From assembly GCF_024125425.1 (NCBI RefSeq), contig NZ_JAMXWN010000009.1, positions 1 to 64,000 on the forward strand: a stretch of 64,000 nucleotides of DNA, written 5' to 3'. Shown in pieces: positions 6,844-38,766 of this stretch. The translations under genes were made by a program, and so were the position numbers. How positions within the stretch are numbered: position 1 is the first letter of the stretch; each line of letters opens with the position of its first letter. Source of the DNA: Sporolactobacillus kofuensis. Lineage in GTDB: Bacteria; Bacillota; Bacilli; Bacillales; Sporolactobacillaceae. The notes beneath the pieces were generated by a model. That model ran no database searches, was not told the origin of the DNA, and was given only the letters and a program-made list of their open reading frames with translations.

Positions 6844-6975
6844 AAATTTTCGATTTTCGAAAATACGATTAATGAGGCGCAACAATCGCTCGGATATGAT
6901 AAAGTGTTTCTCGTCGGATCTTTATACGTTATCGGTATTCTTTTCTTTTTATTTGCAAGTGACAGGCGTTTTTAA
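6844..6975 (+). pseudogene. Possible remnant of an MFS transporter C-terminus
   Basis: In the frame starting at 6844 (right after a TAA at 6841) 43 sense codons run to a TAA at 6973. The peptide contains NEAQQSLGYDKVFLVG followed by a hydrophobic segment and ends FASDRRF. This is the look of the last membrane helix and short tail of a 14-helix drug transporter (DHA2 type). No start codon or upstream body is present. An overlapping open frame (6821-7048, GTG start) has no ribosome binding site and no recognisable content. The rest of 6976-7266 holds nothing I can identify. Confidence 0.35.
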
Positions 6976-36055: not shown

Positions 36056-36278
36056 GATTGTCCCTCCTCATTATGTTGCAATGCTGCTCTACTAATCTAT
36101 GAGAGAGAAGGGGAAAGATAGACTTATTTTTTCTATTTCTTCAGATTCTCAGAAACAAACCATTATGTAACTAAACTTTTACTAAAGTTTTACGTAAATT
36201 GTCTTTTTCTCTCATTCGGTTCCCTTAATACTTAAAAAGGCGGTGCATTTGGAAATTTATTTATTCGGAGGGTTGAGT

Positions 36279-36806
36279 ATGAGAAACTTAATTACAGAGA
36301 TAACAGGGTGGCGCCATTTGAAGATAAGCATGAAATTCGCAATCAGTTTATTAATCGTGTTGGGAATGATGCTTATTACTGCCATCATATCGACTTTTAT
36401 GCTTTACCAAACACTTGAGCGGGCAAAGGAGGCAAGTCGGGCAGGTGAACATGCAGCACAGATTACTGAAGTCGGTTCTCTATTTCGCGCAAAAGATGCA
36501 CGCGTCATCGATTATCTTTTAGATCCCGGTGATGCCTCAGTAAAACTCTATTCTCAGGATCAACAGCAGCTAACGCAAGCCGAGAAGCAACTTCAACCTG
36601 CAATGAAGACGGAAGCACAAAAGAAATGGTTTAATCAAATCATGACGGATGATGCTCGAACTTTTAATTTATTCCAAAGTGAATTCGTTCCGGCGGTTCT
36701 GATGAAGCGGGTTGGAACAACGATGAGTACGCTACTTAACGAAGCTCAAGTTCTGGACGATACATCGATTCGATTTGAACAGTTAATCAAACAATTTAAG
36801 CTCTAA
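36279..36806 (+). CDS. Truncated methyl-accepting chemotaxis protein (sensor part only)
   Basis: A 175-aa protein with the N-terminal layout of a chemoreceptor: short cytoplasmic start, one membrane segment (about residues 17-39) and a four-helix-bundle-like sensor region (GSLFRAKDARVIDYLLDPGD, then long amphipathic helices). A full receptor would continue with a second membrane segment, HAMP and the signalling hairpin to about 550-600 aa; none of this is present, and a strong terminator follows within 30 bases. GGAGG lies seven to eight bases before the ATG, so it may still be translated, perhaps as an inactive remnant. Confidence 0.7.
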   Translation: MRNLITEITGWRHLKISMKFAISLLIVLGMMLITAIISTFMLYQTLERAKEASRAGEHAAQITEVGSLFRAKDARVIDYLLDPGDASVKLYSQDQQQLTQAEKQLQPAMKTEAQKKWFNQIMTDDARTFNLFQSEFVPAVLMKRVGTTMSTLLNEAQVLDDTSIRFEQLIKQFKL

Positions 36807-36957: not shown

Positions 36958-38766
36958 TTAGTCATTTGTAATAGAGGGAGTCTTCATCTGATCGACAAGT
37001 GTTCCTACATAAGCAACTGCTTGACGGATGGTTTCAGGGTTAAGAATGTCTACATGAGCTTTTTCAATCAGTTTCTGCGGTGTTAGGCGACCGCCTTCTT
37101 TGAGCACAGACAGCCAGCGATCAATAGCGGGTTGTCCTTCGTGAACAATTTGTTCAGCAACAGCGGTTGCTACCGTAAGGCCCGCAGAGTAAGTGTAGGA
37201 ATACAATCCTGAATAATAATGCGGTTGCCGCATCCACGTTAATCCATCACTCGCTTCAAGTTGTATGGCATCACCCCAGAAACCTTTGAGGGTTTCATTG
37301 AAGAGATCGGTCAATCGAGAGGCGGTCAGCGCTTCTCCAGATTCGGCAATACGGAATACTTTACGCTGATAAACCCCTTCAAGTAAGTGTGTAACAAAAT
37401 TGTGATAATACGTACTCAATAATCGTTCAGTAACCGAACGTTTCATTGCATCATTCGTTGCATTTTTCTTCAAATAGTGTGCAAGAATGAGTTCATTCAT
37501 TGTTGATGGTGCCTCGACAAAGAATAGAGAAGGATCATAGTTCGCAAGTTTCTGTTTTTTTTGTGCGAGCATAAAATGACCCGCGTGGCCAAATTCATGA
37601 GCCAGGGTTAATATGTTTCAAATATCACCGGTCCATGTCATCAAGATGTACGAATGAACACCGTATGGAGACTCGCAAAATCCACCTGTTGATTTGCCCA
37701 CATTATCACTATAATCAACCCAGCGGTTAGTTAATCCTTCTTCAATAATTGCATGATATTCGGGTCCCATAATCTTCAGGGCATCGAGAAGGGCTTGCTT
37801 ACTTTCCTCAAATGTTGTTTGCGGACTCGTCGTATCTATCGGTGCGAGCAGATCCGCATAGGTAATCGTGTCAAGTCCAAGTGCCAGGCGCTTTAGTTCT
37901 GCAAACTTCTGCATATGCGGTGCAAGTTCTTGATAAATAATATCAAGTTGATTATCGTACATGGTTTCACTGACTTGCTGTTGTTGGAGCAGGTAGTCAG
38001 TCGCTGTCTTATAACCCCTCAACTTTGCAACAGCAACTGTTTTGTTCACTTCAGCAGCATAGACGGAAGCAAATGTATTTTTATACTGATCGAGCGTCTT
38101 TGTGAATGAATCATAGGCATTTCTTCTCAGTACAGTATCTCGAGTTGAAGCATAACTGTTCTCATAAAGTGTGAAAGACATTGGTACGGTGTTCCCATCG
38201 CTGTCTTTCACCGATTCGAACTGCATATCAGCAAGTTTGCTTCGAGAATAGATGGTATAGGGTGCTTCGAGAACTTCAGCAAGTGCTTTAATTGTTTTTT
38301 CCGCTTCCGGATGGAGTCTGAAAGGCTTTTTGTTGAATAATTTCCGAAAATAAGGTTGATATTCTTCGAGTTCAGGTACTTCTTGTATCAAAGCATGGAG
38401 GTGTGAATCATCGAGATCCATTAATTCATCTTCAAAGAAAGAGAGCGTCGCTTCCATTTGTGCATTTGCAGCATCTGCGCGTGCAGCGTCCGCCTGATTT
38501 TCAGGATCGCTGCTATCCGCTGCTTGTTTCAAACTCACGTATGCAGTTAGACGCCATAATCTGGCCGAGAAGTCAAAATAGTCTTCCAAATTACTCAGAA
38601 GAGAAGAGGCACTCACGAACAGTTTTCCCTGACGTAATGCTAATTCTTTGGCACTTTTGGTTAGCGCATTCAATTCTATAAGAAATGCTTCACGTGACGG
38701 GAAGATGTCTTCCAATTTCCAAGTCGTTTCAATTGGAACCTGATTTCTAGTTAAACGTTGATCCAT
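36958..38766 (-). pseudogene. pepF: Oligoendopeptidase F, interrupted by one in-frame TGA
   Basis: Reading on the minus strand from ATG 38766 (GAGGG six bases upstream) gives an M3 peptidase of normal length, 602 codons, except for a single TGA at 37620-37618. The text on both sides is in the same frame and fully conserved: ILMTWTGDI before the stop, then NILTLAHEFGHAGHFMLA, which is the zinc motif HEFGH. The later NELILAHYL and SYTYSAGL blocks are intact. So one point change separates the enzyme into a 382-aa fragment without the zinc site and a 3' part with no ribosome binding site. No other damage is seen, so the lesion is recent, a sequencing error, or read through. PepF trims oligopeptides in the cytoplasm. 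Confidence 0.88.

Follow-up and report, generated by a model that had tools for sequence, protein, structure and literature searches.

Oligoendopeptidase F, encoded by pepF, is a known peptidase of family M3B (TIGR00181; PF08439 and PF01432). In-frame stops in bacterial genes have been described, in the parts of Belinky et al. 2021 (PMC7918605) considered here, as widespread, as accompanied by dN/dS below 1, and as tending to persist only briefly. As far as those parts go, the focus of the study is on stops common to two or more species, and readthrough was suggested for them. A further described system concerns tRNA-Trp-CCA variants that read UGA (PMC13092985); the sections of that work used here name G24A among the tRNA-Trp changes helping UGA readthrough and give the UGA-reading variants 4-bp anticodon stems.

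The Sporolactobacillus pepF copy described below resembles the known family in that its two pieces are colinear and HEFGH stands in frame, and differs from it in carrying one TGA, with the catalytic helix lying beyond the stop. Compared with the stops of Belinky et al. 2021 (PMC7918605), as characterised in the parts cited above, it is likewise a conserved gene that carries one in-frame stop and has an omega below 1, the stop being apparently short-lived, whereas this stop was seen in one genome only; the short persistence and dN/dS below 1 given there fit the present case. With the tRNA-Trp-CCA variants, again as covered in those sections of PMC13092985, it shares a UGA codon and, as we read the cloverleaf, an A24 in the tRNA-Trp of its genome, but this tRNA has a 5-bp anticodon stem and is normal for the genus, and the gene is known here from its sequence. 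The most likely interpretation is that the lesion is real but represents ordinary and very recent gene loss.

The pepF reading frame and its relatives

The window, by which we mean the whole 64,000-nucleotide stretch analysed, comprises bases 1-64000 of a 146,703-base contig in a 2.96 Mb draft assembly of 43 contigs, listed as 99.75% complete. The pepF features within it are as follows.

36958..38766, minus strand: pepF (oligoendopeptidase F, M3B) frame with one internal TGA, most likely a recent pseudogene
37618..37620 (read 37620-37618), minus strand: in-frame TGA, codon 383, read directly under code 11
37621..38766, minus strand: pepF 5' fragment of 382 codons, covering the M3_N domain and the N-terminal part of the catalytic domain but not the zinc motif
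36958..37617, minus strand: pepF 3' fragment, with HEFGH and the remainder of Peptidase_M3

Read directly, the frame runs from an ATG at 38766, with GAGGG 5' of it at 38777-38773, to a TAA at 36960-36958, and its 602 codons contain a single TGA. This codon is followed by N-I-L-T-L and then, in frame, by AHEFGH, placing the first zinc His seven residues past the TGA. The HExxH zinc motif is therefore retained beyond the stop, and under code 11 the frame through the zinc helix is not continuous. Both pieces fall in colinear order on one family: against the TIGR00181 profile the 5' piece scores 316.3 bits over positions 1-374 and the 3' piece 238.8 bits over positions 378-589 of 591, neither piece reaching by itself the 490.55 required of the whole protein. 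In Pfam, the matches are to Peptidase_M3_N and Peptidase_M3. The top solved-structure match for the 5' piece is 2qr4, a peptidase M3B oligoendopeptidase F. The initial annotation had described a single TGA splitting an otherwise open pepF frame six codons ahead of AHEFGH, and the direct reading and the colinear profile matches bear this out, with five codons intervening. Its further statement that no frameshift, deletion or second lesion is visible holds inside pepF, where alignment with six orthologues from the genus revealed 0 frameshifts and 0 internal deletions, but fails for the locus, since a neighbouring chemoreceptor (MCP) gene has lost 398 codons by comparison with G002.

A pepF orthologue was identified in 6 of the 14 other genus genomes, with 82-86% identity across the 3' part; the other 8 have distant M3 matches at no more than 33% identity. 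All six orthologues have an open frame with 0 internal stops and encode Arg at the TGA site. The wider relatives are the best 80 of 582 loci, a sample chosen for similarity, among which the closest named protein relatives are Sporolactobacillus shoreicorticis (76%) and S. terrae (72%). In these 80 loci, two of them Sporolactobacillus, the site is Arg in 79 and Pro in 1; outside the genus it is Arg in 77 of 78 sampled relatives and Pro in one (L081). Pooling the six genus orthologues with these 78 gives Arg in 83 of 84 and Trp in none, and a stop at the codon 383 site was found in 0/6 and 0/78, respectively. A literature search on Sporolactobacillus and oligoendopeptidase found no paper.

Stops within the aligned range were seen in two of the 80 wider loci, L111 and L042. 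The stop in L111, at query position 599, is read as the natural end of the gene. In L042, from Virgibacillus oceani, a TAA interrupts the gene at query position 293 (locus position 6871), with the frame carrying on at both sides, and thus premature pepF stops arise elsewhere too, though not at the codon 383 site. Among the genomes compared, the TGA is confined to the window genome while the relatives are intact, and hence it is not a conserved recoding site. The comparison with close relatives that had been called for initially yielded whole orthologues in all six cases and no natural split.

Selection on pepF and the state of its neighbourhood

Omega values were obtained from the seven aligned genus genes with a purpose-written codon-likelihood script rather than a standard package. 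The nucleotide and protein trees of pepF disagree on the placement of the window copy, with weak protein-tree support at that point (0.212, 0.497). The whole gene was analysed under each topology; for the split gene, the omega limit and the MCP gene the nucleotide topology alone was used. Synonymous distances are poorly known because the branches of the tree are long. The window branch has an omega of 0.053 versus a background of 0.073 (2dlnL 1.79), and a value of 1 can be rejected (2dlnL 109.7). Under the second topology omega is 0.051 and omega = 1 is again rejected, at 2dlnL 107.3. The two parts of the gene are alike on this branch (0.045 for the 5' part, 0.060 for the 3' part), and the upper limit of omega lies between 0.08 (2dlnL 3.65) and 0.09 (2dlnL 6.17). 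Assuming a pre-lesion omega of 0.03-0.07, the neutral share of the window branch would be at most roughly 1-5%. Four other terminal branches were tested (G001 and G013 were left out of the six), giving omega values of 0.031-0.134; two of these branches, both of intact genes, differ significantly, G002 being lower (0.031, 2dlnL 15.3) and G008 higher (0.134, 2dlnL 7.5), and omega alone is consequently not diagnostic.

Counting departures private to one copy, at columns that do not vary among the remaining six, the window copy has 27 (26 residues and the stop) and the others have 3-13. These private residues could mean relaxation; as omega is not raised, we read them as the product of a long branch. 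At 165 columns conserved in at least 95% of the 78 relatives, the window copy differs in 21, one of them being the stop, as against 17-25 in the six intact copies. We reject long-standing decay of pepF on the branch omega, its upper limit and this conserved-column count. The ordinary purifying selection on the window branch implies that the lesion is either very young or a base-call error; by itself, such selection is just as compatible with an error in the base call or with continued expression by readthrough, and does not demonstrate loss.

The second broken gene at the locus lies 151 bp from the pepF frame.

36243..36806, plus strand: chemoreceptor (MCP) gene with an in-frame deletion, 187 codons left, recognised by comparison with relatives

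This remnant preserves both ends of a chemoreceptor gene that stands at full length (558-623 codons) at the same place in 11 of 12 relatives' loci, six with pepF (L172-L177) and five without (L194-L198); the one locus that differs is that of G014 (L199). The L196 copy has HAMP and MCP signalling domains; the window remnant matched no Pfam family. Measured against G002, the loss amounts to 398 codons (573, of which 175 have a counterpart). The G002 stretch holds four direct-repeat families, one of which, of 14 nt with one mismatch, is spaced by 1194 bases, or exactly 398 codons, and this spacing suggests that the deletion was mediated by the repeat. The remnant displays no significant relaxation (omega 0.093, 2dlnL 0.6, 171 codons), and the window genome has seven other MCP-signal matches. 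In a block spanning 28.7-42.2 and 45.2-49.3 kb, where the comparison took in frames of at least 120 codons with at least 50% identity, 15 of 17 distinct genes are uninterrupted, and the two broken ones, pepF and the MCP gene, are adjacent. One antisense frame (L177_5740_6147) was excluded from this count, and three stop-bearing rows (L173_4263, L174_16286 and L176_15758), which begin upstream of the window frames, are read as over-long starts.

Competing explanations and the reading of UGA

The main rival to recent loss is an error of base calling or consensus in the draft, in which case the real pepF would be intact. A single substitution in a gene with otherwise normal selection and no decay is what such an error would look like, and the draft state of the assembly, in 43 contigs, also speaks for it. 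However, short-read assemblies, if this is one, seldom carry wrong substitutions in their consensus, and the genome is listed as 99.75% complete. Moreover, the stretch does not look error-ridden, because 15 of the 17 block genes are uninterrupted and the only other break is a deletion, not a stop. On balance, we regard an error at this base as unlikely.

Some of the remaining alternatives turn on how UGA is read in this genome. ARAGORN named 60 tRNAs in 14 stretches, the matches coming from 150 of 176 first-look candidates scored; a single tRNA-Trp, with anticodon CCA, is among them, and 0 of the 60 have a UCA anticodon, by which a suppressor tRNA is rejected. The gene for release factor RF2 retains its frameshift site.

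L171 333-407: prfB (RF2) frameshift site, AGG-GGG-TCT-CTT-TGA, with the TGA at codon 25, read by eye

The RF2 family match sits in the +1 frame behind this TGA. Autoregulation of RF2 by frameshifting requires UGA to act as a stop, and reassignment of UGA is rejected on the basis of the CTT-TGA site that prfB keeps. Together, the lack of a UCA anticodon among the 60 tRNAs and the retained prfB site indicate that TGA acts as a stop in the window genome.

A leaky UGA is a further rival: a fraction of the ribosomes would place an amino acid there, most likely Trp by near-cognate tRNA-Trp, and a little full-length PepF would still be made. The absence of relaxation in the 3' part of pepF is consistent with such leakage, as is the A at position 24 (by our numbering of the cloverleaf) of the one tRNA-Trp found (L161 4732-4803), G24A being a change that helps UGA readthrough in the sections of PMC13092985 cited above. 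Against this, the anticodon stem of that tRNA has 5 pairs, and the A24 form is common to the genus: 14 of 15 genomes, its own included, match the tRNA at 96-100% (G001 gave no match), and A24 occurs in 7/7 copies inspected. A genus-wide A24 leaves room for weak leakiness, but not for a device special to the window genome. The TGA is, furthermore, not conserved among orthologues, none of the 84 relatives has Trp at the site, and the RNA fold from the TGA onward is not unusual (z -1.44; 20 of 200 shuffles as good), leading us to reject a stimulatory downstream fold. We judge readthrough to be improbable as the explanation of the locus; as a reduced-expression allele it is possible, its positive support consisting of the continued selection and the A24 reading. 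Still less probable, though worth stating, is a lineage-wide form of the idea, in which A24 of tRNA-Trp would make UGA leaky, leaving pepF a low-expression allele rather than a null and allowing UGA alleles to be tolerated for longer than UAA or UAG alleles in the genus.

A natural split of the gene into two working half-proteins finds some appeal in both halves staying open frames. Nevertheless, the first in-frame ATG of the 3' fragment after the TGA, at 37572, is located past HEFGH, so that a product restarted there would lack the zinc motif, and no clear Shine-Dalgarno was seen by eye at this ATG. The initial annotation had already argued from the missing ribosome binding site against two half-proteins, and the position of the ATG adds to its argument. 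With this restart, and with 0/6 genus orthologues split and 0/78 sampled relatives stopped at the site, we reject two half-proteins as well as a natural split in relatives, and consider the explanation barely credible. Selenocysteine or another dedicated recoding, which the proximity of the TGA to the active-site motif might bring to mind, has a next to negligible chance, the site being Arg, not Cys, in 83 of 84 relatives and selenocysteine being rejected with the best matches to SelB (195.6 bits, cut-off 242.25) and tRNA-Sec (40.7, cut-off 47; 150 of 209 candidates scored) both under threshold.

Dispensability and recent loss of pepF

Loss of pepF appears tolerable given that the window genome has two further open M3-like frames (617 and 660 codons; contigs C1 and C34), both with HELGH, and that a part of the genus lacks pepF. 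In the eight genus-mates without pepF, the flanking SpoIIP gene is matched in 8/8 and the flanking glyoxalase gene in 6/8. No recognisable pepF remnant was found in six loci of these genomes (best E 0.19), and decayed remnants in genus-mates without the gene were rejected on this result.

We consider it likely that pepF in the window genome is a fresh nonsense pseudogene, or a strain polymorphism, met with in none of the other genomes compared and too recent to bear other marks. A change of one base, in this strain or in an ancestor not far back, would have converted the conserved Arg codon to TGA. Translation would then halt after 382 residues, short of the HExxH zinc helix, and with the stop in that position the gene presumably yields no active peptidase. 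That the remainder of pepF still looks intact would reflect how short a time it has had to decay further. We infer that the gene has lost its function and that the loss is fixed in the strain. Recent nonsense loss is the best supported explanation given the stop in a lone genome, the lack of relaxation, the other M3 peptidases, the absence of the gene from 8 of 14 genus genomes and the broken MCP neighbour. Among the readings offered in the initial annotation, recent loss is accordingly the one that ranks best, the stop being seen in the window genome only and selection not being relaxed.

For annotation, the locus serves as a warning that neither two peptidase genes nor a selenoprotein should be listed here. 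As a case of gene loss, pepF offers a clean example of the process at its start, with one nonsense codon in a gene under selection and a truncated neighbour. If the pepF TGA were shown to be read through, the locus would be relevant to the extent to which leaky UGA codons shape Bacillota genomes.
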